From Chloroflexia bacterium (lineage in GTDB: Bacteria > Chloroflexota > Chloroflexia > Thermomicrobiales > CFX8), in contig JAUIIK010000041.1 in NCBI GenBank assembly GCA_030431755.1, positions 1-37,278 on the forward strand: 37,278 nt of DNA, in the 5' to 3' direction. The translations under genes were made by a program, and so were the position numbers. This document shows, piece after piece, positions 1,232-31,386 of this stretch. Each line of letters starts with the position of its first letter. Position 1 is the first letter of the stretch. Below the pieces are notes generated by a model that had not been told where the DNA came from, made no database searches, and saw only the letters and a program-made list of their open reading frames with translations.

Positions 1232-1254
1232 GATGGTATCCGAGAGGAACGACC

Positions 1255-1707: not shown

Positions 1708-1754
1708 ACCGCTGCGGCCCCCCGGTTGTCGTGAGCGGGCCAGAGGAGTAGACG

Positions 1755-2072
1755 ATGCAACTGACACCACCACAGGGAACCGGAATAGGGGCAGGCGGGG
1801 CGATTTCGACCGCTGGCATGACCCCGAAGGCCGGCGAGACGGCTTCGCCTTTCGACGATATTGTCCAGGTGACAGCCCAGGCGGTCGGCAATGTCGAGGC
1901 CTCGATGGCCAACGCCGACATGTACGCGACGCGTATGGCGCTCGGCGAGGATGTCGACATCCACTCGGCCATGCTCGCGATGGAGCAGGCGTCGATTGCC
2001 GTCGACATGACGCTCCAGATCCGCAACCGGGCGCTGGAGGCCTACCGCGAGATCATCTCGATGCAGGTCTAG
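1755..2072 (+). CDS. fliE: flagellar hook-basal body protein FliE
   Basis: This encodes 105 residues, the usual FliE size. FliE links the MS ring to the rod and is needed for rod export. The C-terminal half has the family pattern with the conserved end MTLQIRNRALEAYREIISMQV, seen as LQIRNRALEAYREI and MQV. The N-terminal 30 residues are Gly/Pro/Thr-rich and flexible. The ATG at 1755 follows GAGGAG at 1743-1748. It is 47 bases after flgC and is followed by the heptamer repeat at 2080 and then fliF. Confidence 0.95.
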   Translation: MQLTPPQGTGIGAGGAISTAGMTPKAGETASPFDDIVQVTAQAVGNVEASMANADMYATRMALGEDVDIHSAMLAMEQASIAVDMTLQIRNRALEAYREIISMQV

Positions 2073-2079
2073 CTTGTGA

Positions 2080-2141
2080 GGGATTAGGGATTAGGGATTA
2101 GGGATTAGGGATTAGGGATTAGGGATTAGGGATTAGGGATT
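2080..2141 (+). repeat. GGGATTA heptanucleotide tandem array (8 full units)
   Basis: Eight perfect GGGATTA units run from 2080 to 2135, followed by GGGATT at 2136-2141. The array starts eight bases after the fliE stop and ends 76 bases before the fliF start. Nine G-triplets with four-base loops fit the rule for G-quadruplexes on the coding strand. No coding function is seen in this 145-base gap. Confidence 0.97.
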
Positions 2142-2217
2142 CGTGCGATGAATCTGGGCCCTGGAGCCAGGTTGAATCAGTAGTGATTGCGACGAGATGA
2201 AGCGCAGGTGAGCGACG

Positions 2218-3822: not shown

Positions 3823-4832
3823 TGTCGATGTCTAACGCCAACGCGCTCCACGGTAAGCAGAAGGCCGCCGCGCTCTTTATTGGCCTCGGACCCGAGGTTT
3901 CGGCCGAGGTAATGAAGCACCTGCGCGCGGACGAGGTCGAGTCGATCACCCGCGAGATCTTGCGGATGGAGCAGATCGACGACCACACCAAAGAGGATGT
4001 CTTTCGCGAGCTCTACGATATGGCGCTGGCGCACAGCTTCATCACGACCGGCGGCGCGGACTACGCCCGCAATATGCTCCACCAGGCCTTCGGCGAGGAG
4101 CATGGCGACAACATCCTCCGTAAGGTCGGCCAGACGATCCCGGCCAAGCCCTTCGAGTTCCTCAAGCGCTCCGATCCCCGGCAGCTCGCGAACTTCCTCC
4201 AGAACGAGCAGCCGCAGACGATTGCCCTGATTCTCTCGCACCTGCCGGCGAACCAGTCGGCTGAGGTCGTATCGAGCTTTCCGGAAGAGATGCAGGTCGA
4301 TGTCTCGCTGCGCATCGCGACGATGGACCGCACGCCGCCGGACATCGTCGCCCGGGTCGAAGAGATTCTCCAGGTGCGGATGTCGTCGGTTATTTCCCAG
4401 GAGTTCACGACGGTCGGTGGCACGGCGTATCTCGTCGATGTGCTGTCGTCGGTCGACCGCTCGACGGAGCGCGAGATCCTCGACCGGCTCGAAGACGAGG
4501 ATCCCGAGATTGCCGACGAGGTGCGCAAGCTCATGTTCACCTTCGAGGACATCATCAACCTCGATGCGCGCTCGGTCCAGCGCGTCTTGCGCGAGGTCCA
4601 GATGAAGGATCTGGCGCTGGCCCTTAAGGCGGCCCGCGACGATCTCAAGGAACACATCTTCTCGAACATGTCCCAGCGTGCGGCCGAGATGCTGCGCGAG
4701 GAGATCGAGATCTCCGGACCGGCGCGTATCCGCACCATCGAGGACGCGCAGCTTCGCATCGTGGCGATTGTGCGGCGGCTGGAAGACCAGGAAGAGATCA
4801 TCATTTCACGGGGAGGAGAGGTTCTTGTCTAG
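3822..4832 (+). CDS. fliG: flagellar motor switch protein FliG
   Basis: The 336-residue product is the C-ring component that binds FliF and takes torque from the stator. The N-terminal domain (KAAALFIGLGPEVSAEVMKH) binds FliF. The middle domain has a variant of the EHPQ motif, EQPQTIALIL, at about residues 128-137. The C-terminal domain carries the charged torque helix (LALKAARDDLKEHIFSNMS). Length and domain order are normal. Its ATG overlaps the fliF stop, and fliH begins within its last eight bases, so the set is translationally coupled. The EHPQ His is replaced by Gln, a conservative change seen by eye. Confidence 0.97.
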   Translation: MSMSNANALHGKQKAAALFIGLGPEVSAEVMKHLRADEVESITREILRMEQIDDHTKEDVFRELYDMALAHSFITTGGADYARNMLHQAFGEEHGDNILRKVGQTIPAKPFEFLKRSDPRQLANFLQNEQPQTIALILSHLPANQSAEVVSSFPEEMQVDVSLRIATMDRTPPDIVARVEEILQVRMSSVISQEFTTVGGTAYLVDVLSSVDRSTEREILDRLEDEDPEIADEVRKLMFTFEDIINLDARSVQRVLREVQMKDLALALKAARDDLKEHIFSNMSQRAAEMLREEIEISGPARIRTIEDAQLRIVAIVRRLEDQEEIIISRGGEVLV

Positions 4833-5511
4833 GAGCACCCGACTCGTCCGTGACTGGTCCAACGTCAGTGAGACGGTCCGGCTCATCAATGACACGGCTG
4901 CGCCGGCGCGTAGCGCGGCAACCCATGTCGAGCCCGCGCCCGATACCAGCGCGCTGCTGGCCGAGACACAGCGCCAGATTGAAGAGATGCACCTGCAAGC
5001 CCAGGCCCAGATCGAGGCGCAACGGGAGCAGATGTACGCCGATGCGCTGGCCCAGGCGCGCCAGGAGCTGCAGTCGGAATTCGAGACGCTCGTCGATGCG
5101 AGCTTTCAACGCTTCAACCAGATCGTCGCCCAGGCGGCAGTCGATCAGGAACGCATTGTCGAGGCTGCCGAGAAGGACCTCTTCGAGCTGGCCGTCGCCA
5201 TCGCCCACGAGGCCACCGGCGAGCAGCCCTCTGAGGACGCCATCGAGCGGCGTGTGCGCGATGGGTTGGATCTGCTCACCTCCAGCGAGGTTACGACCGT
5301 CCTCTTGAATCCTGACGATCTCATGCTGGCGACGCCCTGGATCGAGCAGTGGCAGCAGGCCGAGGGCGTCCAGGTCGAGATCGTGCCCGACCGCTCGGTC
5401 GAGCCGGGCGGCTGCGAGATCGTCGCCCGCAGCGCGATCTATGATTTCAGCCCCCAGGCGCGTTTGCAGATGATCGTTGACGCCTTGCGCGACCGTGGCG
5501 AGAGTGGGTAG
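4825..5511 (+). CDS. fliH: flagellar assembly protein FliH
   Basis: This 228-residue protein is the regulator of the export ATPase FliI and links it to the C ring. A long Glu/Gln/Ala-rich coiled coil (about residues 45-90, with AQAQIEAQREQMYADALAQA) is followed by the FliH/YscL C-terminal domain (AAEKDLFELAVAIAHEATGE; CEIVARSAIYDFSPQARLQM). The start is taken as TTG at 4825 inside the end of fliG because GGAGGAGAGG lies directly upstream. Other starts further upstream would run through fliG in another frame. The fliI start follows four bases after the stop. Confidence 0.9.
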   Translation: MSRSTRLVRDWSNVSETVRLINDTAAPARSAATHVEPAPDTSALLAETQRQIEEMHLQAQAQIEAQREQMYADALAQARQELQSEFETLVDASFQRFNQIVAQAAVDQERIVEAAEKDLFELAVAIAHEATGEQPSEDAIERRVRDGLDLLTSSEVTTVLLNPDDLMLATPWIEQWQQAEGVQVEIVPDRSVEPGGCEIVARSAIYDFSPQARLQMIVDALRDRGESG

Positions 5512-5515
5512 CCCG

Positions 5516-6886
5516 ATGAGCGCCGTCAACCTCCGGCCATACCACGATGCGCTGCTTGATATCCCCGGCGCGCGCCGCGAGGGCCGCGTGCGCGAGGCCG
5601 TCGGCATCGCGCTCGAAGCCGAGGGGCTGGATGTCAGCATCGGCGAGCTCTGCCATATTCACCCGCGCCGCTCGCACGGCGACACCGCGCGCGATGGCAT
5701 CCCGTCTGAAGTCGTCGGCTTCCGGGGCGACCGCTTCGTCCTCGTGCCGTTGACCGATGTACGCGGGATTGGTCCCGAGAGCCGGGTCACAGCGACCGGT
5801 CGCTCCTTCCGCGTGCCGGTCGGCGATGCGATGCTCGGTAGAGTGCTGGACGGCCTTGGCCGCCCGATTGACGGCAAGGGACCCCTGCGGGTGCAGCACA
5901 CCTACGAGCCGTCGCTGCATCCACCCTCCCCGCTTGGCCGGCAGCCGATTTCGCGGCAGATCCAGACCGGCGTCCGGGCGATTGACACGGCCATCTCCTG
6001 CGCCGAGGGGCAGCGTATGGGTATCTTCGCCGGCTCCGGCGTCGGTAAGAGCACGCTCATCGGGATGATCTGCCGCAACATCGAAGCCGATGTCCGGGTC
6101 ATCGCGCTGATCGGCGAGCGTGGCCGCGAGGTGCGGAACTTCATTGAGAACGACCTCGGCCCGGAGGGCTTGTCGCGCTCGGTCGTGATCGTCTCGACCT
6201 CCGACCAGCCGGCGATGTTGCGTCTGAAGGCGGCCTGGGTCGCGACCTCGATTGCCGAGCATTTCCGCGACGCCGGCCAGCGGACGGCGCTGATGATGGA
6301 CTCGGTCACGCGGTTGGCGATGGCCCAGCGCGAGATCGGCCTGGCAGCCGGCGAGCCGCCGACATCGCGCGGCTACACGCCGTCGGTCTTCAGCCTGCTG
6401 CCGAAGGTGCTCGAACGGGCAGGTATGGGCGAGGTCGGCAGTATCACCGCGTTCTACACCGTCCTCGTCGACGGCGACGATTTCAATGAGCCAGTCACCG
6501 ATGCCGTGCGCGGTATCCTCGACGGCCATATCTATTTGTCGCGTGATCTGGCCAACGAGAACCACTTCCCGGCCATCGACGTGCTGGGCAGCGTTAGCCG
6601 TGTCATGCGGGACATTGTCGACGAGCGGCATTACCGGCTGGCCGATGACCTGCGGCACATCATGGCGACCTACCACCATGCCCGCGACATGATCGACATT
6701 GGCGCGTACAGCGCCGGCTCGAACCCGAAGATCGACCGGGCGGTGCGGCTGATGGGCCAGATCCAGGCATTTCTCCAGCAGACGCCGGACGACCTGTCCC
6801 CGATCCCGAGGAGTCTGGAGCGTATCGAGGGCATTCTGAACGCGCCTGACGATGCGCCGCTGACCCAGATCGGCGGTCTGCGATGA
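5516..6886 (+). CDS. fliI: flagellum-specific export ATPase FliI
   Basis: The 456-residue ATPase energises and organises type III export of rod, hook and filament subunits on the cytoplasmic side. The Walker A motif GSGVGKST lies at about residues 172-179, and the Walker B region is RTALMMDSVTRLAMAQREI. The FliI/YscN signature PPTSRGYTPSVFSLLPKVLE and the F1-beta-like fold are clear. The start is set at ATG 5516, giving MSAVNLRPYHDAL; an in-frame GTG at 5504 is possible. The stop overlaps the fliJ start by four bases (ATGA). Confidence 0.97.
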   Translation: MSAVNLRPYHDALLDIPGARREGRVREAVGIALEAEGLDVSIGELCHIHPRRSHGDTARDGIPSEVVGFRGDRFVLVPLTDVRGIGPESRVTATGRSFRVPVGDAMLGRVLDGLGRPIDGKGPLRVQHTYEPSLHPPSPLGRQPISRQIQTGVRAIDTAISCAEGQRMGIFAGSGVGKSTLIGMICRNIEADVRVIALIGERGREVRNFIENDLGPEGLSRSVVIVSTSDQPAMLRLKAAWVATSIAEHFRDAGQRTALMMDSVTRLAMAQREIGLAAGEPPTSRGYTPSVFSLLPKVLERAGMGEVGSITAFYTVLVDGDDFNEPVTDAVRGILDGHIYLSRDLANENHFPAIDVLGSVSRVMRDIVDERHYRLADDLRHIMATYHHARDMIDIGAYSAGSNPKIDRAVRLMGQIQAFLQQTPDDLSPIPRSLERIEGILNAPDDAPLTQIGGLR

Positions 6887-7419
6887 GCGCGCCGCGCGGC
6901 TTCGTCTTCCGCTTGCAGGCATTGCTCGACCATCGCGAGAAGCTGGTTGAGGATGCCGAACAGATCATGGCGCGGCACGAGGCGACGGTCGCTCAATACG
7001 AGCAGGGGCTGGAGTTCATCGCCGCCCGGCGCGGGCAGATGAAGACCTACCTCGGCGCGCTCCAGGTGCAGCCGTCAATCGATATCCAGGCGCTGGAGTC
7101 CGTCAGCGGGTACGACGGCGTCTTGAACCACGAATCACAGGAGCTCCGGACCAAGCTGCGCGCCGCCGAACGTGACTTACGAGAGTCACGCGATGTCGTC
7201 GTCCAGTGCCGGATCGATCTAGAGGCCATCGAAAAACTGCGTGAGCGCGATCTCAAGCGGTTCGTCATCGAGCAGCAGGCGAAAGAAGACCGCATGCTCG
7301 ACGAGCTGGCTTCAGCGGCGTTTGCGCGGGAAATGGGAGCAGCGCGAGGACTGCGCCCCGCGGGGGATGCACCATGGAAGGATCAGGACTCGACCTCTCG
7401 CGCGTCTCACAGCAACTAA
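6883..7419 (+). CDS. fliJ: flagellar export chaperone FliJ
   Basis: The 178-residue product is coiled coil for nearly its whole length, beginning [20 protein letters not shown], which is the usual FliJ N-terminus. FliJ stands in the FliI hexamer as a stalk and helps cargo hand-over to FlhA. Heptad-like Glu/Arg/Leu patterns run to about residue 145 ([20 protein letters not shown]), followed by a Gly/Pro/Asp-rich tail. It overlaps fliI by four bases, and the next gene starts 46 bases before its stop. Identity rests on position as well as pattern, since FliJ sequences diverge widely. Confidence 0.88.
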
Positions 7420-7973
7420 TCGCAGCCCGCCAGCTACAGGTTGGCGGCTGGCTGCGCGGCTCGCAGACGAATGCTGCGGGCGGCTCGTCATCGTTTTCTG
7501 ACACCCTGGCGAATGCGCTGGGTGGCTCCAGCCCGGTCGTCAGCCCCGGCGCCAGCTATGGCTCCGGGCCGCTTACGTCGACGCTGCCCTTTGGCGATCT
7601 GATCGACTCGGCGGCGCGTTCGGCGGGCATCCCGCCGGCCTTGATCGCGGCGGTCATCCAGGCGGAATCCAACTTCAACCCGAATGCCGTCTCCCCAGCC
7701 GGGGCCAAGGGGCTGATGCAGCTCATGGACGGCACGGCTGCCGGGCTGGGCGTCACCGACTCCTTCGACCCGGCTCAAAACATCCAGGGCGGCACGCAGT
7801 ACCTGACGTCGATGCTCGAACGCTTCGGCGGCAATGTCGCGCTGGCGCTGGCGGCCTACAACGCCGGGCCGGGCGCGGTGGAGCAATATCAGGGCATCCC
7901 GCCATACGCCGAAACGCAGAAATACGTGCCAACGGTACTGGGGTTCTATGAGCAGTACCAGGACCGGTCCTAG
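7374..7973 (+). CDS. SLT-type lytic transglycosylase in the flagellar cluster
   Basis: This 199-residue product has a C-terminal soluble lytic transglycosylase (SLT/GEWL) domain at about residues 75-195. The catalytic Glu lies in [15 protein letters not shown], followed by the fold markers [26 protein letters not shown] and [15 protein letters not shown]. The N-terminus ([20 protein letters not shown]) is not a signal peptide. The enzyme would cleave peptidoglycan to let the rod through, the job FlgJ does elsewhere; no flgJ is seen here. Lack of a signal peptide suggests export through the flagellar apparatus, as an inference. The start overlaps fliJ, with GGGGGATG before the ATG. Confidence 0.9.
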
Positions 7974-8073
7974 CCCGAGTGCAGACTCACGGTGGGGGCG
8001 TAACAGGACCACGGTGGCTTTAGTTCCGCAGGCACAGTGGCATACGCTTGAAAAGGAAAGTTGAGGAACGACT

Positions 8074-8490
8074 GTGGCGCGAATTGAAGCCACCGAGGTT
8101 CTCCAACAATCGCTCGACGGCCTGAGCATGCGACAGCAGGCGACGGCCAACAACATCGCAAACGTTGACACGCCAGGCTACAAGGCGACGCAGGTCTCAT
8201 TTGAGACGCAGCTCGCAGCGGCGGTCGAAGAGCAGATGTTGGAGCGGCGCGGTGTGCAGGTGGCAACGACCAACCCGGCGCACCTCGCAGCAGGCCCGCG
8301 GGGGCTTGACCAGGTCGAACCGGTTGTCAGCAAGTTCGACACTGTCAGCTACCGCAACGATGGCAACAGTGTCGATATCGAACGCGAGATGGCCCTGCTG
8401 GCCGAAACGCAGTTGCGGTACTCGACCTTGAGCAGCCTCGTTAGTCGCCGTTTGGCGATCGAGCGCAACATCATTCGGGCGGGCACGTAG
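8074..8490 (+). CDS. flgB: flagellar basal-body rod protein FlgB
   Basis: The 138-residue proximal-rod protein carries the N-terminal signature ANNIANVDTPGYKATQVSFE and the FlgB-specific C-terminal pattern NDGNSVDIEREMALLAETQL. Start GTG 8074 has GAGGAA upstream. The roughly 100 bases before it hold no gene and no clear promoter. FlgB and FlgC are usually adjacent (flgBC-fliE); here flgB follows the transglycosylase gene, well away from flgC, so the order is rearranged. The length is normal. Confidence 0.95.
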   Translation: MARIEATEVLQQSLDGLSMRQQATANNIANVDTPGYKATQVSFETQLAAAVEEQMLERRGVQVATTNPAHLAAGPRGLDQVEPVVSKFDTVSYRNDGNSVDIEREMALLAETQLRYSTLSSLVSRRLAIERNIIRAGT

Positions 8491-8500
8491 TCGGTATGGG

Positions 8501-10609
8501 ATGCAGGCACGAGCAAGGATGCGTAGTAGCGTGCAGGATTTGTTTCAACTGGGAATGGTCGCGCAGGATGCCGGAACGACAACCGGCCCAGCGCGCTCCG
8601 GCCGGAAAGCCCACAAGCACGACGGTGAGAGCGCCGTTGGCAGCGTGGACTTCGAGACGGCCATGGCCCTGGCTGCAACGCTTGCCGCTACACCGTCGCC
8701 AGCCTTCAACCAGTCGCCGCCGTTGCAACTGCGGCACGGCCAACCCTCCACCACAGATGTCGACGCAAGCGCAAGCGCTCCGGCCGGGATCTCCGGCGAT
8801 GCCAGCGCCTTCGCCTTCTCATCACACTCCCGCCTCTCCCGCGAAGTCGGCACGAATTCACTGCCATTGCTTGAGAGTGCGTCGGACGGTCAGCAGACCG
8901 GCGAGCGCGGAGTGGCCTTCGCTGACGCGAGCACAGCCAGTGACACGGCGGCGATCCGGAATTTGCTTGCCCGGCTCGCCAACCCGGGCGAGCAATCGGG
9001 CGGCTCAGACGTGTCGGCTACGACACCGGCAATCGACGCGGGTGGGCTCGTTCCAATTGACCGGCCCGCGCCGCCGCAGACCCCAATGGCGCCGGAAGCA
9101 GTAGACGAAGTGGGAGCGGGAAGCTTGGCAGATACGACCGAAGACGGCGGCAGCGGCATTCAGCTCGACTATCGCCCGGTGCGGCGGCTGATTCCGGTCG
9201 TTACCGAGAACTGGACGCCAGAGAGTGGGGTTGAAGCGCTTGACCAGCCGCAGGTGGCGGACGGTGAGAATCTAACCCCACCGGTGGATGTCACGCAGAC
9301 CGGGGATGTTGCTGCCACAGAGCTGCCACTGGAATTTGATCAGGTTGCGCCGCAGCCGGCGCCATTTCCCCTTGAACAGACCGACCGTTTGATCGCCGAC
9401 GAGCCCATCTTGCCGCCGCCTGTCGCGCCGCGTGATTTTCCGGAACAGACGGTCGGCACACGCCCGTTCTGGACCCGCCGGCAGCAGCCTGTGGACGCAT
9501 CTGACGCTCCAGCTGCGACGCCGCGCTTCGGCAACCAGAGCGTCAACGGACCGGAGCTCCGGGTCGTCTCGCGCAACGACAACCCTGCGCCAGGGCAGGA
9601 TGTCGAACAGCCTGAATTGCGGCTGATCGAGTTCACCCAGCGTTCGCTGGCGACTGAGCCGGACGATGATCTCGTTGCGCTGATCGCCGATGTCTGGGAG
9701 CAGTCTATTGCCGAGGGTGAAGTCGACCTGCCGGCGGCAACGCCGCGCTTGACGGCGCTTCCGACGGTCATCGCCAACACGCTCGCGCCGCGCGAACGCG
9801 ACCAGCTCGCTCGTGTTAGCGCCAGCGACGACACTGCGCCGGCCGATGCGCTTGATGCGCCGGAGCCCATGCCCTTCAAGATCAAGGCGGTCAGCGCCGG
9901 CTCAGAGCTTGGCGGCCAGTTTGACGGTATGACCGAGCAACACGACGGCGGGACTGACGCGACGTTCAGTGCCGAGCGCGGAAGCGCTCCCCAGGTTTCG
10001 CGGGCGGCCGGCGAGCCGTCGGCAACGCCGGTGGCGCTCTTCGATGATTTCCTCTCCACACGGTCGATAGAACGCGCGCAGCCCGGCCCGGATGCGCCCG
10101 TCGCCGTGCGCCAGGCGGCGCTCGAGATCGCCACCGAGGTGAGCCGCTTGCAGCGCAACGGCGGTTCGGAGATTTCCTTCAGCTTGCGCTTGCACCCCGA
10201 GCATCTGGGCGAGGTGCGGGTAGAGATTCAGCGTGTCGACAATGTCTGGTCGCTCTCGATCACGGCCGCGAACGACGAAGCACGGGAAGCCCTGGCGGCG
10301 GAGATTGGCCGCCTGGAACATCGCTTCCGCGAGCATGATCTGAAGCTTGACGGTATTAGCGTCGCGACTCAGCCACGCGATGAGTCGATTAGCGCCCCGG
10401 CCCAGGCCGAGCGGGCCAGCAGCTCGGGACTCGGCGACAACGCCCGGCAAGGGTTGCCGGGGGAGCAGAACCGGGACCAAAGCGGGTGGCGGAATCCCAG
10501 CCCAGCGACGATACTTGGTTTTGACTCTCGCGACGAAGCTGAGACCGCGCAAGAGTTGACGCGTAGGCACGATCCGACATCTGTTTCCGGCGTCGACATC
10601 AAAGCATGA
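8501..10609 (+). CDS. fliK: flagellar hook-length control protein FliK
   Basis: This encodes 702 residues. Most of the protein (about 1-540) is low-complexity, rich in Ala, Pro, Asp, Glu and Thr, as expected for the exported molecular ruler. The C-terminal hook-length control domain lies at about residues 542-630, with FSLRLHPEHLGEVRVEIQRV and the following EIGRLEHRFREHDLKLDGISV region (given here as LEHRFREHDLKLDGI); this domain switches FlhB specificity. It is long compared with many FliK proteins, mostly from the disordered part. ATG 8501 is used; ATG 8519, in frame, is also possible. It sits between flgB and flgD, the usual fliK-flgD order. Confidence 0.9.
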   Translation: MQARARMRSSVQDLFQLGMVAQDAGTTTGPARSGRKAHKHDGESAVGSVDFETAMALAATLAATPSPAFNQSPPLQLRHGQPSTTDVDASASAPAGISGDASAFAFSSHSRLSREVGTNSLPLLESASDGQQTGERGVAFADASTASDTAAIRNLLARLANPGEQSGGSDVSATTPAIDAGGLVPIDRPAPPQTPMAPEAVDEVGAGSLADTTEDGGSGIQLDYRPVRRLIPVVTENWTPESGVEALDQPQVADGENLTPPVDVTQTGDVAATELPLEFDQVAPQPAPFPLEQTDRLIADEPILPPPVAPRDFPEQTVGTRPFWTRRQQPVDASDAPAATPRFGNQSVNGPELRVVSRNDNPAPGQDVEQPELRLIEFTQRSLATEPDDDLVALIADVWEQSIAEGEVDLPAATPRLTALPTVIANTLAPRERDQLARVSASDDTAPADALDAPEPMPFKIKAVSAGSELGGQFDGMTEQHDGGTDATFSAERGSAPQVSRAAGEPSATPVALFDDFLSTRSIERAQPGPDAPVAVRQAALEIATEVSRLQRNGGSEISFSLRLHPEHLGEVRVEIQRVDNVWSLSITAANDEAREALAAEIGRLEHRFREHDLKLDGISVATQPRDESISAPAQAERASSSGLGDNARQGLPGEQNRDQSGWRNPSPATILGFDSRDEAETAQELTRRHDPTSVSGVDIKA

Positions 10610-10637
10610 GCACGCAGTCACAGGTCAGGAGCAACGC

Positions 10638-11075
10638 ATGGTAGATCGCATACAAGACCTGATTATCGATCCGAACCCAGGTCCGGAGATTGTCAACGAA
10701 CCGCCTGGACTGGGGCAGGATGCGTTCCTCGAACTGCTGGTCGCGCAATTGCGGAACCAGAACCCGTTGGAGCCGCTGGACAACTTCCAGTTCATCAGTC
10801 AGATCGCGCAGTTCAGCACGCTGGAGCAGATGACGTCATTGAACGCTGCGCTCTCGGGGTTTACCGAATTTGCGGCGCTGGGCCAGCTGGCGTCGATGGT
10901 CGGAAAAGAGGCGACGATCGTCAACGAGAGTGCCGGGATCGACGTCACCGGCATCATCACTGCGGTAACGCTCGAAAGCGGCGAGCCGCGCGTGATTATC
11001 GATGGCAACTCGTACGCCCTGGACAACATCACACGAATTGGATTGCCCGCAGGAGGCGGCGCCGATACGCCGTAG
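10638..11075 (+). CDS. flgD: flagellar hook capping protein FlgD (short form)
   Basis: The 145-residue protein is the scaffold cap for hook polymerisation. The N-terminal conserved segment reads GQDAFLELLVAQLRNQNPLE and continues with QFISQIAQFSTLEQM. A central part (LGQLASMVGKEATIV) and a beta-rich end (GEPRVIIDGNSYALDNI) follow. It is shorter than the enterobacterial protein of about 230 residues because the Ig-like/tudor C-terminal region is reduced; such short forms occur in Gram-positive-type flagella. AGGAG precedes the ATG. It is 28 bases after fliK and 31 before flgE. Confidence 0.93.
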   Translation: MVDRIQDLIIDPNPGPEIVNEPPGLGQDAFLELLVAQLRNQNPLEPLDNFQFISQIAQFSTLEQMTSLNAALSGFTEFAALGQLASMVGKEATIVNESAGIDVTGIITAVTLESGEPRVIIDGNSYALDNITRIGLPAGGGADTP

Positions 11076-11106
11076 CGTCTACGGCACAGGAAGGATCTAA
11101 CGCGTC

Positions 11107-11916
11107 ATGTTTCGATCGATGTTCGCAGCCGTCTCGGGTCTCAGAAACCACCAGACCTGGATGGACGTCGTTGGCAACAACATCGCCAACGTCAACACCG
11201 CCGGGTACAAACATGCCCGGATCAATTTCCAGGACACCCTGAGCCAGACCGTCAGCGGTCCGACCGCGCCTGGCTCGCCGCTCGGTGGCACGAATCCGCG
11301 GCAGATTGGCCTCGGCTCGTCCATCGGCGCGATCGACACGATCCAGACCCAGGGCAGCCTGCTGACGACCGACCGGGTGCTCGACCTTGCCATTCAGGGC
11401 AACGGCTTCTTCGCCGTCAGCGACACGCTCGGCACCTATTACACTCGCGATGGCGCGTTCAGCCTCGACGCCGACGGCTTTCTGGTTGTCCCGTCAACCG
11501 GCTTCTACGTCCTCGACGACACCGGCGCGCAGATTCAGCTTCCGGTGACGGCCACCGCACCGGCGCTCGAGACGATCACGATTGGCCGCGACGGCGGTAT
11601 CACCGGCTTCTTCGATGATGGCTCGACCTCGCTCGTTGGAACCATCGGCATCGCGCGGTTCCCGAACGCGAACGGCCTGCTCCGGGTCGGCGACAACATG
11701 TTCCGCGACACGCCGAACTCCGGCGCGGCCGACCTCGGCACGCCGCAGGTCGACGGCCGTGGCGCGATCAGCAGCGGTTTCATCGAGAATTCGAATGTCG
11801 ACCTGGCCGCACAGTTTACCTTCATGATCATGGCCGAGCGCGGCTTCCAGGCCAACTCGCGGGTGATTACCACCGCCGACGAGATGCTCGTGGACCTGGT
11901 GAACATGAAGCGGTAA
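11107..11916 (+). CDS. flgE: flagellar hook protein FlgE (short, FlgG-like)
   Basis: The 269-residue product begins MFRSMFAAVSGLRNHQTWMD and has NNIANVNTAGYK, the rod/hook N-terminal D0 motif. DLAIQGNGFFAVSD and the C-terminal MIMAERGFQANSRVITTADE complete the FlgE/FlgF/FlgG pattern. The MDVVGNNIANVNTAGYKHAR stretch and the place after fliK and flgD point to the hook protein, as in Bacillus, whose short FlgE was once named FlgG. The distal-rod protein FlgG is the main alternative. It is the last gene of the cluster in this window, and a hairpin terminator follows. flhA, flhB, fliP-R, motAB, fliM and fliN are not in view. Confidence 0.8.
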   Translation: MFRSMFAAVSGLRNHQTWMDVVGNNIANVNTAGYKHARINFQDTLSQTVSGPTAPGSPLGGTNPRQIGLGSSIGAIDTIQTQGSLLTTDRVLDLAIQGNGFFAVSDTLGTYYTRDGAFSLDADGFLVVPSTGFYVLDDTGAQIQLPVTATAPALETITIGRDGGITGFFDDGSTSLVGTIGIARFPNANGLLRVGDNMFRDTPNSGAADLGTPQVDGRGAISSGFIENSNVDLAAQFTFMIMAERGFQANSRVITTADEMLVDLVNMKR

Positions 11917-18537: not shown

Positions 18538-18930
18538 CTAGCCAGACCGGTCTCTGAGACTGAAGGTCTCGCTGCCGATCTCCATGTTGAATGGTCGATC
18601 CAACCGGGCAAAGCGCGATGCCATCATGACGATCACATCAAAGGTTTCTGCAAGGCGTATGTGGGCTAACTCGGGACTGCAAGCGATGCCGAGATAGCTC
18701 AGTTGCTCGAATCTCGCCATACGGGAGAGCCTGCGAAAGTGCCGAACATTGCGGGTTGCAACGATGCGGTTGTGTCGGAGTGCCAGAAGCGCGACCTCAT
18801 GATCTGTGCGTCCGCGGCCAATTGCCTCGCGCGAGAGCACGGTGTCGACTCCACGCGTGAGGAAGAAATCTATGGCTCTCTGTGGTACATCCTCGTCGGC
18901 GAGCAGGCGCAACTCTTCCGGCGCGGTCAA
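18538..18930 (-). CDS. DUF5615 PIN-like protein (probable toxin)
   Basis: The 130-residue protein has the DUF5615/PIN-like pattern: LLADEDVPQRAIDFFLTRGV at the start (the first acidic pair), then GRGRTDHEVALLALRHNRIV and ATRNVRHF. PIN-like proteins are Mg-dependent RNases with a few conserved acidic residues; here the Asp-Glu-Asp near residue 13 and the Thr-Asp-His-Glu near residue 44 would be the metal ligands. It begins at TTG 18930, overlapping the DUF433 stop by four bases (TTGA), so it is translationally coupled to its antitoxin-like partner. Toxin activity is inferred from the DUF433/DUF5615 pairing common in bacteria and cyanobacteria. Confidence 0.82.
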   Translation of the reverse strand: MTAPEELRLLADEDVPQRAIDFFLTRGVDTVLSREAIGRGRTDHEVALLALRHNRIVATRNVRHFRRLSRMARFEQLSYLGIACSPELAHIRLAETFDVIVMMASRFARLDRPFNMEIGSETFSLRDRSG

Positions 18931-19553
18931 CCGGCAATTGCCGCGCTACAGTGTCCGGCGGGAAAGTCGATCGCTGCCTGAACGTCCTCCGGCGTCAGCC
19001 CCGGATATTCCTCGCGGATACCCTCGATTGTGCAGCCGGCATGCGCGAACGCTTGAATCGCGTCGACGGTCACCCGCGTTCCGGCGACAACCGGCTCCCC
19101 GCCAAGCACGTCGGGATTCTGCTCGATTCGCCCGATCTGGTGTTTCAGCTCGCGGCTGTGTTCGATCTTCCAGACGAGCCTGTTCAGAATCTGGATGACA
19201 TCAATCGGCTCCGAGCCGGAGCCCTCATCGACCAACCGGGCCGGTTCGAGGTCAACCTGCGGATCATCGCCCATCCGCAACCTGGCGCTGTCGAGCTGTT
19301 CCGCGACCCGGTCCTGAATCTTCCGTAGCCCTGAGAGCGGCACGCCCTGCTCACGCAATTCCTTCACGGCCCGCACAGCGACGAGGTCGGCAAGCGTGAA
19401 GAGCCTGCCTATTTGCTCTGCTGACCCATCACGATCACTGGCACGGATGATGCCTGTGGCGGTCCAGTGTCGGAATTGTTCCTCGCTGATCCCCGTGAGC
19501 CAAGCCAGCTCTGAGGCGGTGAAGCAGTGGTTGGAATAGTCGATAGTCATCAT
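18927..19553 (-). CDS. MerR-like HTH plus DUF433 protein (probable antitoxin)
   Basis: The 208-residue protein has two parts. Residues about 10-75 are a MerR-type helix-turn-helix (FTASELAWLTGISEEQFRHW, then RLFTLADLVAVRAVKELREQ). Residues about 145-200 are the DUF433 domain (NPDVLGGEPVVAGTRVTVDA and GIREEYPGLTPEDVQAAIDF). DUF433 proteins are typically antitoxins for PIN-like partners. The extra DNA-binding domain fits autoregulation of the operon. The 3' end overlaps the DUF5615 gene. The second DUF433 protein in the window (20283) lacks the HTH domain. Confidence 0.85.
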   Translation of the reverse strand: MMTIDYSNHCFTASELAWLTGISEEQFRHWTATGIIRASDRDGSAEQIGRLFTLADLVAVRAVKELREQGVPLSGLRKIQDRVAEQLDSARLRMGDDPQVDLEPARLVDEGSGSEPIDVIQILNRLVWKIEHSRELKHQIGRIEQNPDVLGGEPVVAGTRVTVDAIQAFAHAGCTIEGIREEYPGLTPEDVQAAIDFPAGHCSAAIAG

Positions 19554-20531: not shown

Positions 20532-20888
20532 GTGTCCCGCCGGCTGCTACTCGATGCGAATATGTCCCCTCGCACGAGTCAGTTTCTCGTCGATCGATTC
20601 GGCTACGACGCCGAAAGCCTCATCAGTCGTGGCCAGGGGCACCTCACGGACACTGAAGTAGCTAGGATTGCTATTCAAGAGGGTCGAGTCATACTGACTT
20701 TTGACCTCGACTACAGTTGTCCGAGAGGACCGCACTCGGAGGCGCTCGTAGTCGAGAACTACGACTCCCCGTACAGCTTCTCCCGGAGGTCGGAGATGTG
20801 GCGGCGGAGGGCGGTGTCGGTGGTGAGGGTGTCTTCGATCTTGGAGACACCGTGCATGATCGTGGAGTGGTCGCGGTTGTCGAGGTAG
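20532..20888 (+). pseudogene. truncated DUF5615 PIN-like toxin gene
   Basis: GTG 20532 opens a frame with the DUF5615 N-terminal half: RRLLLDANMSPRTSQFLVDR, then HLTDTEVARIAIQEGRVILT and FDLDY. After about residue 62 the family pattern stops. The rest of the frame, up to 20888, is read on the strand opposite the dnaA 3' end (from 20759), with low-quality, Arg/Ser-rich residues, so it is not a natural tail. Families of this type normally have about 50 more residues. The gene therefore seems to have lost its 3' part next to dnaA, and is probably inactive; a shortened active form is possible. Confidence 0.75.
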
Positions 20889-22219
20889 CGGCCGATCTCG
20901 ACCAGCGAAGAACCCGTCTCGTCGCGGATGAGGTACATCGCGATCTGACGCGGCAGGACGATCTGCTTGCTGCGGCCACGGCCGCGTAGCTCGGCCAGCG
21001 TCACGTCGAAGTGGGTGCTGACCTCGGCGATGATGCGGTCAGGCGTGATCTCGGAGCGGCGCGATTCCAGCTCGGTGTCGGCCAGCGCCTGGGCGGCGAT
21101 GTCCATCCGGATTGGCTGGTTGAAGAGCTGGGCCATCGCGATGATCTTGTTCAACGCCCCCTCCAGCTCGCGGATGTTCGACTGCACCCGGCGGGCGATG
21201 TACTCGATGACGTCGTGCGGCACGTCGACGCCGAGCATCTCGCCCTTGCGGCGGATGATGGCCGTGCGCGTCTCGACGTCCGGCAGCGAGACGTCCGCGA
21301 TCAGGCCGCCCTCGAAGCGCGAGCGCAGCCGGTCGTCGAGCGTCTGGATCGTCTTCGGGTGGCGGTCGGAGGAGATGACGATCTGCTTGCCCGACTGATA
21401 GAGCTCGTTGAAGGTGTGGAAGAACTCCTCCTGGGTGCTCTCCTTGCCGGCGATGAACTGGATATCGTCGATCATCAGGATGTCAATCGAGCGGTAGCGC
21501 GAGCGAAACTCGTCGGTCTTCTGGCTCATGATCGACTTGATCAGCTCGTTGGTGAAGCGCTCGGAAGAGACGTAGAGCACCTCAACATCGGCATTTTGAT
21601 CCATCGCCCGGTGGCCGATGGCGTGTAGCAGGTGTGTCTTGCCGAGGCCGACGCCGCCGTAGAAGAAGAGCGGGTTGAAGGCGCCGGCCGGGGCGTCGGC
21701 GACGGCCATCGCGGCGGCGTGGGCCAGCCGGTTCGAGCCGCCAACGACGAAGCTCTCGAAAGTGTAGCCGGGATTGAGGCCGTGGCGCGACGGCGCGACC
21801 AGCTCCATCTGCTGGGTCTGTGGCGACGGCGTCGGCGCGGCCGGGGTCTGTTGACGCTGGCGGGCGGCCGGCGGCACCGGCTTGGGCTTCGATTTCGGCG
21901 TGCGGTGGTAGTGCTCGCCGACGGCGGTGCGGACGACATAGTCGATCTCGACATGGCGGTTGATCAGCGTTGCGATGGCGTCGGAGATCTGCCGGTCGAA
22001 CTTCGAGCGTAGCTGCTGGACGGTGAAGGTGTTCGGCGCGGCAATGACGGCGTTGTCGCGGTCGAGGTCGACAAGCGTCGTCGCCCGCAACCAGGTCTCG
22101 AAGTTGGCGCGCGACACCTGTCCCTGGAGGTCATCCAGAGCCGCCTGCCAGACCTGTTCGAAGCGTGCATCAGCCTGCTGCTCGATTGCCATGCCCTCGC
22201 CTTTCGAGCCGTGCGCCAT
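20759..22219 (-). CDS. dnaA: chromosomal replication initiator protein DnaA
   Basis: The product (about 486 residues from ATG 22219, or 477 from ATG 22192) initiates chromosome replication. Domain I is near FEQVWQAALDDLQGQVSRAN. A Pro/Thr/Gln-rich linker is domain II. The AAA+ domain has Walker A GGVGLGKTHLLH and Walker B ILMIDDIQFIAGKES. Domain IV has the DnaA-box binding pattern LAELRGRGRSKQIVLPRQIA and DNRDHSTIMHGVSKIED. GGAGGAG precedes ATG 22219 by 11 bases with a DnaA box between; ATG 22192 has AAAGGCGAG. dnaN is not adjacent: downstream lies the truncated DUF5615 gene. Confidence 0.96.
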   Translation of the reverse strand: MAHGSKGEGMAIEQQADARFEQVWQAALDDLQGQVSRANFETWLRATTLVDLDRDNAVIAAPNTFTVQQLRSKFDRQISDAIATLINRHVEIDYVVRTAVGEHYHRTPKSKPKPVPPAARQRQQTPAAPTPSPQTQQMELVAPSRHGLNPGYTFESFVVGGSNRLAHAAAMAVADAPAGAFNPLFFYGGVGLGKTHLLHAIGHRAMDQNADVEVLYVSSERFTNELIKSIMSQKTDEFRSRYRSIDILMIDDIQFIAGKESTQEEFFHTFNELYQSGKQIVISSDRHPKTIQTLDDRLRSRFEGGLIADVSLPDVETRTAIIRRKGEMLGVDVPHDVIEYIARRVQSNIRELEGALNKIIAMAQLFNQPIRMDIAAQALADTELESRRSEITPDRIIAEVSTHFDVTLAELRGRGRSKQIVLPRQIAMYLIRDETGSSLVEIGRYLDNRDHSTIMHGVSKIEDTLTTDTALRRHISDLREKLYGES

Positions 22220-22221
22220 GC

Positions 22222-22230
22222 TGTGGATAA
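22222..22230 (-). promoter_or_regulatory. perfect DnaA box in the dnaA leader
   Basis: TTATCCACA on the minus strand (TGTGGATAA on plus) is the exact consensus. It lies between the Shine-Dalgarno and the first ATG of dnaA, and is part of a stem CTGTGGA/TCCACAG (22221-22242). It could mediate DnaA autoregulation. I found no other close match in the 500 bases upstream, which limits the oriC call. Confidence 0.7.
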
Positions 22231-22244
22231 CTCCTCCACAGCAC

Positions 22245-22254
22245 TGTACGTACA
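22245..22254. promoter_or_regulatory. TGTACGTACA palindrome near the dnaA start site
   Basis: This is a 10-bp perfect palindrome placed ten bases after the predicted -10 of dnaA. The same sequence follows the -10 of flgC at 1211-1220. A third GTACGTACAC copy is at 22630-22639. It is a candidate operator for an unknown regulator. Confidence 0.4.
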
Positions 22255-22264
22255 CTTGCCAGTG

Positions 22265-24143: not shown

Positions 24144-25589
24144 TCAGGGCTTGACCGAAGCGGCGATGCCGCGCAGCATCCGGGCGAAGACGATCTGGTG
24201 GAGCGGGTAGAGCGCGTACCAGTAGAGTTTCCCAAGGATGCCGACGGGATCGAAGATCGCCGTCTGGCGGATGCGCGTGCCACCTTCCACCGGCTCGACC
24301 TCGAATTGAAGCCAGGCGCGACCCGGTAGCTTCATCTCGGCTTCCAGGCGCAGCAGCCTGTCTGGCTCGTATTCCTCGACGCGCCAGAAATCGACCGTGT
24401 CGCCGGGGTGGATCTCCGAGACATGTCTGCGCCCGCGCCGCAAGCCGGGGCCGCCCACCAGCAGGTCCAGAAAGCCGCGCAAGCGCCAGAGCGCGTTGCC
24501 GTAGTACCAGCCGGCCGACCCGCCCACACGACTGATCGGCTCGAAGGCCCGCTCCACGGTCGTGCGCACCCGCAAGGAACGCGAATCGACGATGCGCGAG
24601 CCGAACGCTTCGCCACCGTAGCTGGTCGTCGCGCCGCTCGATGAGAGGGCGTCCGACCAACGGGTCATCGCGTACTCGCGGTCCTCATTGGCGAGCGCCC
24701 GGGCGATGGCTTCAGCCGCTGAGCGGGGCTGGATGTCGAAGAGCTCGGCGGCACGGTGGCTGGTGACGACGGTGTCATGCCGCAGGCTGTCGACGAGATG
24801 GCGGCCAACCCGCGCATAGACCGGCGTCACCAGGCCCAACCAGAGACTCGAGAGACGCGGGGTGAGAAACGGGACAGGCACGATCTTCCGGCCCAGCTCA
24901 CGCTGGCGGGCGTACTCCAACATCAGATCCTGATAGGTAACGACCTCCGAGCCGCCGATTTCGACGATCTCGCTGGAGTCAGTTTCAACATCGAGCGCCG
25001 CCAGGAGATAGGCCAGGACATCCTCGATAGCAATGGGCTGGGCTTTGCTGCGGACCCAGCGCGGCGCGGTCATCACTGGCAGCTTCTCGACCAGCGCTCG
25101 GACCATCTCGAACGACAGACTGCCTGAACCGATGATGATCGAGGCACGCAGCTCAATAGTCTGAACTCCAGAGTCCCGCAGAATGCGGCCAACGCGCTGC
25201 CGGCTCTCGAGGTGTGGCGATAACTCACCGCTCTCGCCCAGCCCGCCGAGGTAGATGATCCGGCTGACGCCGGCGTTCCGGGCGGCGCGCGCGAAGGTTT
25301 CGGCGCTCGCGCGTTCCAGCTCTTCAAAATCCTCGCCGGTCGCCATGGAGTGGACTAGATAGTAGGCCGTGTCGACGCCTGCGAACACCTCATCGAGTGA
25401 AGCGGGGTCGAGCAGATCGCCCTGGACGACGTCTGTGCCGGCCGCGACCCGAGGCTTGAGGTTGGACGGCGTCCGCGCGAGACAGCGGAGACGCTCGCCA
25501 CGCGCTTCAAGGCGCGGCAACAAGCGCCCGCCGATGTAGCCGGACGCGCCGGTCAGCAGAACGGTGCGTGGGGTGGTGGTGTCGCGCAT
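24144..25589 (-). CDS. NAD(P)-binding SDR-like protein with C-terminal DUF2867-type domain
   Basis: The 481-residue protein has an atypical SDR domain at about residues 1-300: TGASGYIGGRLLPRLEARG (TGxxGxxG cofactor loop), VQGDLLDPASLDEVFAGVDT and the YLVHSM region. The C-terminal half (RVGGSAGWYYGNALWRLRGF, then DRLLRLEAEMKLPGRAWLQF) matches the DUF2867/SRPBCC-like extension seen in such proteins. It probably acts on an isoprenoid or other lipid-like ligand, but the substrate is unknown. It ends seven bases from the M20 stop (convergent) and is divergent from the heliorhodopsin gene. Confidence 0.85.
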   Translation of the reverse strand: MRDTTTPRTVLLTGASGYIGGRLLPRLEARGERLRCLARTPSNLKPRVAAGTDVVQGDLLDPASLDEVFAGVDTAYYLVHSMATGEDFEELERASAETFARAARNAGVSRIIYLGGLGESGELSPHLESRQRVGRILRDSGVQTIELRASIIIGSGSLSFEMVRALVEKLPVMTAPRWVRSKAQPIAIEDVLAYLLAALDVETDSSEIVEIGGSEVVTYQDLMLEYARQRELGRKIVPVPFLTPRLSSLWLGLVTPVYARVGRHLVDSLRHDTVVTSHRAAELFDIQPRSAAEAIARALANEDREYAMTRWSDALSSSGATTSYGGEAFGSRIVDSRSLRVRTTVERAFEPISRVGGSAGWYYGNALWRLRGFLDLLVGGPGLRRGRRHVSEIHPGDTVDFWRVEEYEPDRLLRLEAEMKLPGRAWLQFEVEPVEGGTRIRQTAIFDPVGILGKLYWYALYPLHQIVFARMLRGIAASVKP

Positions 25590-25758: not shown

Positions 25759-25797
25759 TGCAAGTAAAGATATACTATAGATTTAGATATTGCAAGT
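25759..25797 (+). promoter_or_regulatory. AT-rich control region before the heliorhodopsin gene, with direct repeats
   Basis: TGCAAGT occurs at 25759-25765 and 25791-25797. The stretch between them is markedly AT-rich for this DNA and contains TATACT (25771-25776), a -10 candidate. No convincing -35 is seen, so the promoter may need an activator or alternative sigma factor. It lies in the 274-base gap between the divergent SDR-like gene and the heliorhodopsin gene. Confidence 0.4.
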
Positions 25798-25863
25798 GCC
25801 GCGAAGGTACATCCCCGCGATTTCGGGAATGTATCCAGGCACTCGCCACAGGAAGGAACACGC

Positions 25864-26652
25864 ATGACAGCGTCACAACAACGGCAGCCGAACCCGCATG
25901 GTCGAGGCTTGAGACGTGACAACCTCGTCGTCGGATTGATCCATCTGGCGCAGGTCGTCATCCTCGTGCTGCTTAGCAACGACTTCAGCCTGCCCGTGAC
26001 AGAGACGTTTCTCAGCGGCCCGCCTGGCGTCACCGACCCCGGTAGCCCCGAGGTGATCTGGGATCTGCCGCTCGGTTATGCGGTCGCCGTGTTCCTGCTC
26101 CTGGCCGCAGTCGATCACCTGCTGATGGCCATGCCGGGGATCTGGGAGTGGTACAGCCGCAATCTCGGGCGCGGCATCAACTACGCCCGCTGGTGGGAGT
26201 ATTCGGTCAGCGCCTCGTTGATGGTCGTCCTGATCGCGATGCTGACCGGCATCGCCGACATCACGGCGCTGGTCGCAATCTTCGGCGCGAATGCCGCGAT
26301 GATCTACTTCGGCATGGTCATGGAGATCTTCAACCGGCCCGGTGACGCTGAGGTGAACTGGACGCCCTACCTCTTCGGCTGTGTAGCCGGCGCCGTTCCG
26401 TGGATCGCGATTGGCATCGCCCTCTTCGGCGCGGAGGCGGAGTCCACCGGCCAGGTGCCGACCTTCGTTTTCATCATCTTCGCGTCGCTCTTTGTGCTCT
26501 TCAACAGCTTCGCGATCAACATGGTCTTGCAGTACAAGCAGCTTGGCCGCTGGCGCGATTACATCTTTGGCGAGCGCGCCTACATCGTCCTCAGCCTCAC
26601 TGCCAAGACGGCCCTCGCCTGGCAGATCTTCGCCAACACGCTGATCGACTAG
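25864..26652 (+). CDS. heliorhodopsin (retinal-binding photoreceptor)
   Basis: This 262-residue, seven-helix protein has the length and motifs of heliorhodopsins. The Schiff-base lysine is Lys248 in SLTAKTALAWQIF, the counter-ion is Glu112 in ARWWEYSVSASLM, His27 is in GLIHLAQ, His85 in AAVDHLL, and Ser244 near the retinal is kept. NDFSLPVTETFLSGPPG matches the conserved extracellular/loop stretch after helix A of this family. Heliorhodopsins have an inverted topology (N-terminus inside) and are light sensors or enzyme regulators, not usually ion pumps. AGGAAGGA precedes the ATG. No carotenoid or retinal-synthesis gene is near. Residue assignments rest on my recall of the family reference protein 48C12. 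Confidence 0.97.
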   Translation: MTASQQRQPNPHGRGLRRDNLVVGLIHLAQVVILVLLSNDFSLPVTETFLSGPPGVTDPGSPEVIWDLPLGYAVAVFLLLAAVDHLLMAMPGIWEWYSRNLGRGINYARWWEYSVSASLMVVLIAMLTGIADITALVAIFGANAAMIYFGMVMEIFNRPGDAEVNWTPYLFGCVAGAVPWIAIGIALFGAEAESTGQVPTFVFIIFASLFVLFNSFAINMVLQYKQLGRWRDYIFGERAYIVLSLTAKTALAWQIFANTLID

Positions 26653-26835: not shown

Positions 26836-27609
26836 ATGAATCGTTTATTTCAGCGGGCCGCACAAAAGCACCGGCTGGCGCTGTTCGCCTTGACTGTCGT
26901 GATGCTGGGAGTGCTCGCCGGAGCATCTGCAAACGCGCAAGAGGAGGCAGACCTCGATCCGACCTTTAGCGCGACCTTCCCCACGGAACACTGTCGCTGG
27001 TCGCCGATCGGCCAGAACGCCTTCTTCAGTCTCGCACCGGGCACGAAGCACGTGCTCGAAGGTGAAGAGGATGGCGATGTCATTCGTACCGCCATCGAGG
27101 TCCTGCACAAGACCGAGCGTGTCGGCGACGTGCATACGCGGGTGATCGAGGAGCGCCACTACGTGAACGGCGACCTCGACGAGGTCTCCCGGAACTACTA
27201 CGCGCTCTGCCGTGAATCCAATAGTGTCTTCTACTTCGGCGAGGAGGTTGACTTCTACGAAGATGGCGAGATCATCGGGCACGAAGGCGCCTGGCTCGAT
27301 GGGGTGGATGGGGCGAAGTTTGGCCTGTACATGCCGTCGCTGCCGTTGCTCGGCGCGCGCTACTACCAGGAGATCGCGCCGGGCGCGGCGCTCGACCGGG
27401 CGGAGATCACCGACCTCGCAGCCAGCGTCAGCGTCCCCTATGGCGAGTTCGAGGGGTGCCTCGAGACGGTCGAATCGACGCCGCTTGAGCCGGGCTCGCT
27501 GAGCATCAAGCTCTACTGCCCCGGCATCGGCATTATCGACGACGACGGGCTGGAGCTGATCGAGTACCGGCCCGGCAGCCTGGGTGCGTGGCCTGGTTTT
27601 CGTCGCTAG
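26836..27609 (+). CDS. secreted protein of unknown function (PGT-motif type)
   Basis: The 257-residue protein has a signal peptide (QKHRLALFALTVVMLGVLAG, cleavage after ANA) and an all-beta-like mature part. FFSLAPGTKHVLEGE and HTRVIEERHYVNGDLDEVSR match an uncharacterised bacterial family with an FFxLxPGTxxxxEG opening strand, and VFYFGEEVDFYEDGEIIGHE continues it. Four Cys in the mature part may pair. The ATG at 26836 is chosen as GGAGG lies nine bases upstream; a TTG at 26830 is in frame. It is 183 bases after the heliorhodopsin gene in the same direction, with no clear promoter seen between them, so co-transcription is possible but not shown. Confidence 0.85.
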   Translation: MNRLFQRAAQKHRLALFALTVVMLGVLAGASANAQEEADLDPTFSATFPTEHCRWSPIGQNAFFSLAPGTKHVLEGEEDGDVIRTAIEVLHKTERVGDVHTRVIEERHYVNGDLDEVSRNYYALCRESNSVFYFGEEVDFYEDGEIIGHEGAWLDGVDGAKFGLYMPSLPLLGARYYQEIAPGAALDRAEITDLAASVSVPYGEFEGCLETVESTPLEPGSLSIKLYCPGIGIIDDDGLELIEYRPGSLGAWPGFRR

Positions 27610-30195: not shown

Positions 30196-31386
30196 TTACT
30201 GGCGGCCGTCGTCCGGCGGGACCGGGTCGGCCGAGATCTTATAGAGCACTGGCTCGACGACCAGATAGGAGATCGGCGTCGGCACATCGACGTGCGTCGT
30301 CAGGTGGATGCGGAAGCCGACATCCGGGATGCGCTCGATCCAGAGGATCGCCGGCGGCGGGTTGCCGCTCGGCGCGGGATTGGCCATAAACGTCGCGCTG
30401 ACGTGGCTGTGGATGCCGGTCAGTGGTTCGCTCACGAAGTGCGACGTGGCATTGACCGGGAAGGTGGTGTTGCCCGCCGTCTGAAACTGCGAACGCCCCT
30501 GCACCTGCAGCGCGACGCCTGTGTTGTCCTCGGCCCTGCCCAGGAGGCCGACGCCGTAGAAAGTGTGGCCGTTGGCTCCGACGCCGTCGACGCTGTAGCC
30601 CTGCGTCCCGATGCCGGTGGATGAGACGCCCTGGACGCCGGACTTGGCGTTGCTGACGCCCCGAATGGCGACCTCGTTGCTACTCGTGCCGACGATGCCG
30701 ATCGCGTTGTCGCTGTGTGCCGAAACGCCTGGCGAGTTGGCGCTCATGCCGCGCACGCCATAGCCGTCGACGCTGTGGCCGTAGACGCCGTCGCTGCTCC
30801 AGCTTTCGCCATGGACGCCGCGGCCATTGTCGCTCTCACCGTGGACGCCGGCGCTGCCGAGACTCTCGCCCTTGACGCCGAAGCCCGATGTGCTGACACC
30901 GCGCACGCCGTTGTCGATGTCACTCGTGCCCTGAATCGCCGTCCAATTGTCGCTCTCGGCGACGATCGCGCGGTCGTCATCGGCGGTCGCTTTGAGCGCG
31001 ACATTGGTATCGCTGTGGGCCTCGACGCCGTAGCCGTCGACGCTGCTGCCATAGACGCCGCGGCCGGTCTCGCCGGCATAGCCGATGACGCCGTCGCCGT
31101 CGTTCTGCTGAGAGGTGCCCCAGACACCTGCCCCCTGGACGCTGCTGCCCCAGACGCCGGGGCCGTTGGTCGAGTTGTAGCCCGTCACGGCGGCGACGCC
31201 GTTGTTGCTCTGGCCGTTGACGGTTCCGGCGGCGCGTGCGTCCTCCTGCTTCAGCATCGTCGTCGCGACCGCGCCGGTGGCCAGCGCCGCGCCAATCTTT
31301 AGAATGCGACGACGTGACTGCCCGGCCTCGTTGCCGGCTTCCGAAACCGCGTCGACGTCGACTCCGGTCACTGTCTGGTCTTTCAC
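30196..31386 (-). CDS. Tat-exported Gly-rich repeat protein (beta-solenoid type)
   Basis: The 396-residue protein has a twin-arginine signal: QSRRRILKIGAALATGA (RR at about residues 25-26), then KQEDARAAG. Residues about 55-310 are many short Gly/Val/Ser repeats of the kind GVWGSSVQGAGVWGTSQ and GVRGMSANSPGVSAHS, which suggest a right-handed beta-helix surface or appendage protein. The C-terminal 80 residues (ILWIERIPDVGFRIHLTT) are a separate domain. The start is GTG 31386. The function is unknown; such repeats occur in tail-fibre-like and adhesive proteins. A Tat substrate can carry a folded domain or cofactor, but none is seen. Confidence 0.8.
   Translation of the reverse strand: MKDQTVTGVDVDAVSEAGNEAGQSRRRILKIGAALATGAVATTMLKQEDARAAGTVNGQSNNGVAAVTGYNSTNGPGVWGSSVQGAGVWGTSQQNDGDGVIGYAGETGRGVYGSSVDGYGVEAHSDTNVALKATADDDRAIVAESDNWTAIQGTSDIDNGVRGVSTSGFGVKGESLGSAGVHGESDNGRGVHGESWSSDGVYGHSVDGYGVRGMSANSPGVSAHSDNAIGIVGTSSNEVAIRGVSNAKSGVQGVSSTGIGTQGYSVDGVGANGHTFYGVGLLGRAEDNTGVALQVQGRSQFQTAGNTTFPVNATSHFVSEPLTGIHSHVSATFMANPAPSGNPPPAILWIERIPDVGFRIHLTTHVDVPTPISYLVVEPVLYKISADPVPPDDGRQ

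Follow-up and report, generated by a model that had tools for sequence, protein, structure and literature searches.

The closest solved relative of the heliorhodopsin (HeR) described here is 48C12 HeR (PDB 6su3/6su4/6uh3; E=6e-71), and our PDB matches also include TaHeR of a Thermoplasmatales archaeon (PDB 6is6/7u55; E=1e-62), whose host is likewise said to lack retinal synthesis and for which retinal uptake through a fenestration has been proposed (PMC9385722). V2HeR3, a proton-transporting viral HeR (PMC9448325), belongs to the same superfamily and has the same counterion. The presence of HeRs in Thermomicrobia MAGs from desert crust has already been reported (PMC7901476); the passages of that report dealing with them give presence only, and residues, retinal supply and gene neighbours are not described there. 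Aurantimicrobium and Luna-1 actinobacteria (PMC7734400, PMC12422013) are, like the host studied here, rhodopsin carriers without a known retinal cleavage enzyme; they keep a lycopene or C50 cyclase, however, and none was found in our genome. The HeR that we analyse adds a member to a family already known, both Thermomicrobia HeRs and retinal-auxotrophic HeR hosts having been published before.

The window (the whole 37,278-nucleotide stretch analysed here, contig C237) is part of the 5.1 Mb genome, 97% complete, of a Chloroflexota bacterium, probably of an order like Thermomicrobiales, and this genome carries a single HeR. A first-pass annotation, made from the sequence alone, had proposed that the window holds a full heliorhodopsin gene, and profile searches bear this out: the protein matches Pfam PF18761 (331 bits, curated cut-off 26.7; E=3.9e-99) and the NCBIfam equivalog NF038020 (322.9 bits, cut-off 100), each profile being covered from end to end, and is ~49% identical to 48C12 HeR over the full length. 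An AlphaFold2 model built on an alignment with 17 relatives (mean pLDDT 83.8) reaches a TM-score of 0.91 to 6su3 and reproduces the fold of solved HeRs, including strands 42-46 and 64-69 in the long A-B loop. Both signatures used in PMC9601134 are present, SxxxK in TM7 (S244/K248) and the ESL motif in TM3 (E112/S116/L123). His27, His85, Glu112, Ser244 and Lys248, the residues singled out by the first-pass annotation, are all found in the translation and align with H23, H80, E107, S237 and K241 of 48C12. The ORF is a genuine, complete heliorhodopsin, for which alignment to solved HeRs suggests the inverted topology with the N-terminus inside. It has SxxxK and not the DxxxK of type-1 rhodopsins, and its N-terminus of ~15 residues contains no Cys and no extra domain, that is, no extension of the Znf-HeR or MORN-HeR kind (PMC8612252). 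While identity and key residues stood, the partner genes and repeat-driven regulation that the annotation had also put forward did not, and it had overlooked both the lack of a lycopene cyclase and a change of two residues where the proton is transferred.

Table 1. Features of the heliorhodopsin locus (positions are those of the window)
Feature	Position	Strand	Comment
SDR/NmrA-like + DUF2867 protein	24144..25589	-	Divergent upstream neighbour; not a conserved HeR partner
Two TGCAAGT copies	25759-25765, 25791-25797	+	Offset by 32 nt within AT-rich DNA; copy number at chance level
Ribosome-binding site	25850-25857	+	AGGAAGGA; rated good / plausible
Heliorhodopsin (HeR) gene	25864..26652	+	262 aa, ATG start, seven transmembrane helices
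Ala81 codon	26104..26106	+	Replaces the counterion-bonding serine, 48C12 S76
Asp84 codon	26113..26115	+	Clade-specific acid adjoining His85; 48C12 F79, A in most HeRs
His85 codon	26116..26118	+	48C12 H80, proposed proton acceptor
Glu112 codon	26197..26199	+	Counterion, 48C12 E107
Leu212 codon	26497..26499	+	Third clade-fixed change; adjoins retinal-flanking Phe213
Lys248 codon (AAG)	26605..26607	+	Schiff-base lysine of SxxxK; invariant wherever covered
Secreted protein, no known family	26836..27609	+	Downstream neighbour; not a conserved HeR partner

With the 48C12 network of PMC9726877 as the reference for mapping, the relay is intact in the window HeR at twelve positions (N20, H27, Q30, Y97, R109, E112, S116, E154, E237, S244, K248 and W253): counterion, His pair, Arg, Glu pair and SxxxK are the same as in 48C12, and the relay residues are also common to TaHeR. 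Two sites differ. Where 48C12 has S76 and F79, and TaHeR has Ser and Ala, the window HeR has Ala81 and Asp84. In a comparison of 37 HeRs, a set that is small and biased towards relatives of the window protein, this pair occurs in 15 of the 16 HeRs from the host's order. Position 81 is Ser in all 22 other HeRs, and position 84 is Ala in 20 of these, Phe in one, Asn in one and Asp in none. Along with position 212, which is Leu in the Ala/Asp sequences and Phe in 20/22 of the others, these are the only three columns fixed in the clade against the other 22. All 15 Ala/Asp HeRs form one clade (support 98/95), so the pair goes back to a single ancestral change; the sole HeR of the order to fall outside it is that of genome G036 (Ser/Asn). 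Wider sampling of viral contigs gave two HeR loci only, both of the standard Ser/Ala type, which is also that of a viral-contig HeR outside the 37, and the two HeR loci found on plasmids are standard too. The clade has fixed two swaps at the proton-transfer site, loss of the serine equivalent to Ser76 and acquisition of Asp84. In the openly accessible papers that we searched, short of the 4,000-sequence surveys, this variant is not described.

In simulations of 48C12, Ser76 bonds the counterion and turns towards His80 during proton transfer (PMC9726877). Since the counterion-bonding serine is lost together with the gain of a carboxylate one helical turn further on, beside His85, we propose that the proton relay has been rewired in this clade. 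On illumination the proton of the Schiff base would move towards Glu112 and the site formed by His85 and His27, where Asp84 may join or tune proton acceptance. On a helical wheel Asp84 lies 72 degrees off the conserved face, which suggests that its side chain points towards the cavity; it could instead occupy a helix-helix contact. If it did face another helix, the Ala81/Asp84 pair might leave the relay unaffected and merely mark the lineage as a neutral trait, all the more since the single origin makes the coupling of the two changes rest on one event. We regard such neutrality as a possibility of lesser weight, given that Asp84 is kept in 15/15 sequences that share only ~55-68% identity with the window protein, next to a residue 83 that is free to vary, and that all three fixed changes map near the chromophore. 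A bolder version of the rewired relay, in which a carboxylate-based acceptor (Asp84, with the serine lost) replaces the standard His relay, and retinal comes from other microbes or by a route bypassing beta-carotene, is one that we advance only tentatively.

The destination of the Schiff-base proton in HeRs is disputed (PMC6951262 versus PMC9726877), with one study finding H23 and H80 of 48C12 dispensable for absorption (PMC6951262). Nine of the HeRs (L008-L015, L018) form a clade with Leu at both positions equivalent to His23 and His80; their hosts are Dehalococcoidales, Thermoleophilia and other Chloroflexota and Actinomycetota MAGs. The compared sequences thus provide three natural versions of the site, namely the standard one with His/His and Ser, the Leu/Leu one of the nine, and that of the present 15, in which His/His is combined with Ala and Asp, and a comparison of their photocycles would directly test where the Schiff-base proton goes.

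As to function, we expect the protein to bind all-trans retinal at Lys248 and to act most likely as a slow light sensor rather than a pump, light sensing being the role that the family best suggests (PMC8612252, PMC11109279). The sequence predicts absorption of green light, probably below 540 nm: Met153 and Met220 stand in place of Q148 and Q213 of 48C12, which predicts a bluer pigment, and match the group of HeRs absorbing below 540 nm (PMC7807009). One might argue that Asp84 instead turns the HeRs of this clade into light-driven proton transporters, as it brings a further carboxylate close to the residue proposed as proton acceptor, and viral HeRs with extra carboxylates do transport protons (PMC9448325). 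We consider this very improbable, because the viral hallmark, the V2HeR3 gate pair E191/W195, is replaced by Leu209/Phe213 in the window HeR (alignment with 48C12 and TaHeR), so that ion transport is not expected. The bacterial HeRs tested so far are reported not to be ion transporters. Taken as a whole, the account that we favour, a retinal-binding HeR sensor with a relay rewired around Ala81 and Asp84 and supplied with imported retinal, appears probable.

The import of retinal is suggested by what the genome lacks. The first-pass annotation had noted no type-1 rhodopsin, carotenoid cleavage or retinal gene in the window, and this holds genome-wide: no match to PF01036 (type-1 rhodopsin), PF15461 (Blh) or PF03055 (RPE65-type oxygenase) was found. 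We surveyed 61 genomes of the order, 16 of them with a HeR, and both Blh and RPE65-type enzymes are absent from all 16. Had each of the 16 possessed such an enzyme, the chance of missing it in all of them through incompleteness would be ~5e-16. Among the 61, Blh occurs in G033 only and the RPE65-type oxygenase in G006 only, neither of which has a HeR. In G033, Blh, a CrtY lycopene cyclase and a type-1 rhodopsin are clustered on one contig (C425; L035, L052, L058), and their recovery indicates that the searches are able to find these families in the order.

Judged by PF18916 and PF05834, neither of them a dedicated CruA/CruP model, a lycopene cyclase was likewise not recognised in the window genome, the former giving no match and the latter fragments. 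The PF05834 matches were rejected as cyclases, as they cover the FAD-binding N-terminus only, a full-length match being found only in G033; five classifiable ones are GMC oxidoreductases, an ArsO-type monooxygenase and an HpnE/CrtI-like oxidase, and the sixth is cut by the contig end. This genome thus offers no known gene for either the ring formation or the cleavage that lead to retinal. The HeR itself is under strong purifying selection, with dN/dS of 0.02-0.13 in nearer pairs. That the known retinal genes are absent and yet the HeR is strongly constrained implies either imported retinal or a synthase outside the known families. With the known steps of ring formation and cleavage missing from the genome, we infer that other microbes are the most likely source of the retinal, through uptake. 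For hosts of this kind, import from outside is what is usually proposed (PMC9385722, PMC9296517, PMC12422013).

Aurantimicrobium minutum, however, produces retinal although it has neither blh nor diox1 (PMC7734400). An enzyme not yet recognised may therefore take the place of uptake and render the heliorhodopsin self-sufficient here as well. A carotenoid cluster is indeed present, the only one found in the window genome, on contig C235: crtB (phytoene synthase), a cruG-like glycosyltransferase gene, cruF and crtI, with CruF fused to an acyltransferase-like domain. In a relative, G049, a phytoene synthase gene follows the HeR after ~90 nt on the same strand, which links HeR to carotenoid synthesis there. 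Self-made retinal nonetheless seems to us rather unlikely. With no lycopene cyclase recognised, even the beta-ionone ring goes unexplained, and from the known biochemistry of the families the CruF/CruG/CrtI set should yield acyclic, hydroxylated and glycosylated carotenoids. The clade makes a clean case of a HeR kept by selection where retinal cleavage is unrecognisable, and in the window genome ring formation too, and it bears on how such organisms obtain retinal.

The first-pass annotation had named the two flanking genes as genomic partners of the HeR. When the surroundings of 34 other HeR genes (~350 kb) were searched with eleven proteins of the window, neither flanking gene had a homologue there; the only matches, unrelated-looking ones, were to a generic SDR and, at 25% identity, to a molybdopterin enzyme. 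Full-length homologues of the SDR/DUF2867 protein do exist in five other genomes of the order, though never on the contig that carries the HeR, and they adjoin housekeeping genes of the pssA/psd/dnaG-like or ribosomal-protein kinds; given this company, we rejected the SDR/DUF2867 gene as a light gene. The downstream secreted protein matches no Pfam or NCBIfam family; homologues occur in 11/61 genomes including the window's own, two of them with a HeR (one weakly), and lie adjacent to a HeR in the window only. Because they are absent near 34 other HeRs and the relatives' homologues sit on other contigs, we do not take the flanking genes for partners. It is true that a published survey counts SDR genes among ten frequent neighbours of HeR in operons (PMC11109279), that an SDR overlaps the HeR upstream in G049, and that 5/6 genomes with the full-length SDR/DUF2867 protein have a HeR (p=0.004 uncorrected; three belong to one genus). 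But the window gene is divergent and forms no operon with the HeR, and the G049 SDR is of another family (DUF1731), which leaves partnership highly unlikely. The window neighbours do not indicate a signal-receiving partner.

The direct TGCAAGT repeats, from which regulated expression had been proposed, do exist in the AT-rich upstream region. Regulation through them finds no support: the two copies are the only ones in the window against a chance expectation of 2.1, and the pair is absent upstream of all relatives examined, with single TGCAAG/CTTGCA matches upstream of 2/31 other HeRs. We found no sigma-70-like site upstream of the HeR and no RNA element in Rfam. With its count at chance level, no promoter found and the pair unconserved, TGCAAGT was rejected as an operator.

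The neighbours of HeR vary among genera and include a copper amine oxidase, an alpha/beta hydrolase, an MFS transporter, aminoglycoside 3-N-acetyltransferases, an M50 peptidase and a small multidrug transporter. An aminoglycoside 3-N-acetyltransferase-family gene follows the HeR in four genomes of genus g9 (L038-L041), constant inside this one genus only, and G013 has a second copy upstream of its HeR. In G049 (L047, 5824-8575), SDR (DUF1731), HeR and phytoene synthase genes follow one another on the same strand, with a 4-nt overlap of SDR and HeR; this arrangement, which is absent from the window, agrees with the report that carotenoid genes adjoin some HeRs (PMC8612252). The HeR of G039 (L045) contains one in-frame TGA, perhaps the mark of a pseudogene or of a fault in the assembly. 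In Lactococcus petauri, a HeR is carried as mobile cargo on a small mobilizable plasmid of 10.5 kb (NZ_CP141705.1, L102), where it adjoins an IS6 transposase and a recombinase.

The rest of the window offers some clues to the host. A run of flagellar genes (1210-11916, + strand), in which FlgC-like, FliF, FliI and FlgE/F/G-like proteins are confirmed by Pfam, makes it probable that the host, besides carrying a HeR, is motile. The translation of a gene 3.6 kb from the HeR (20759-22255, - strand) reads as dnaA, which suggests a chromosomal location for the locus, possibly close to the origin. Further genes on the - strand encode a 396-aa protein rich in GVxGxS-type repeats with no Pfam match (30196-31386) and a protein of antitoxin-like architecture in which DUF433 is fused to a MerR-type DNA-binding domain (18927-19553).
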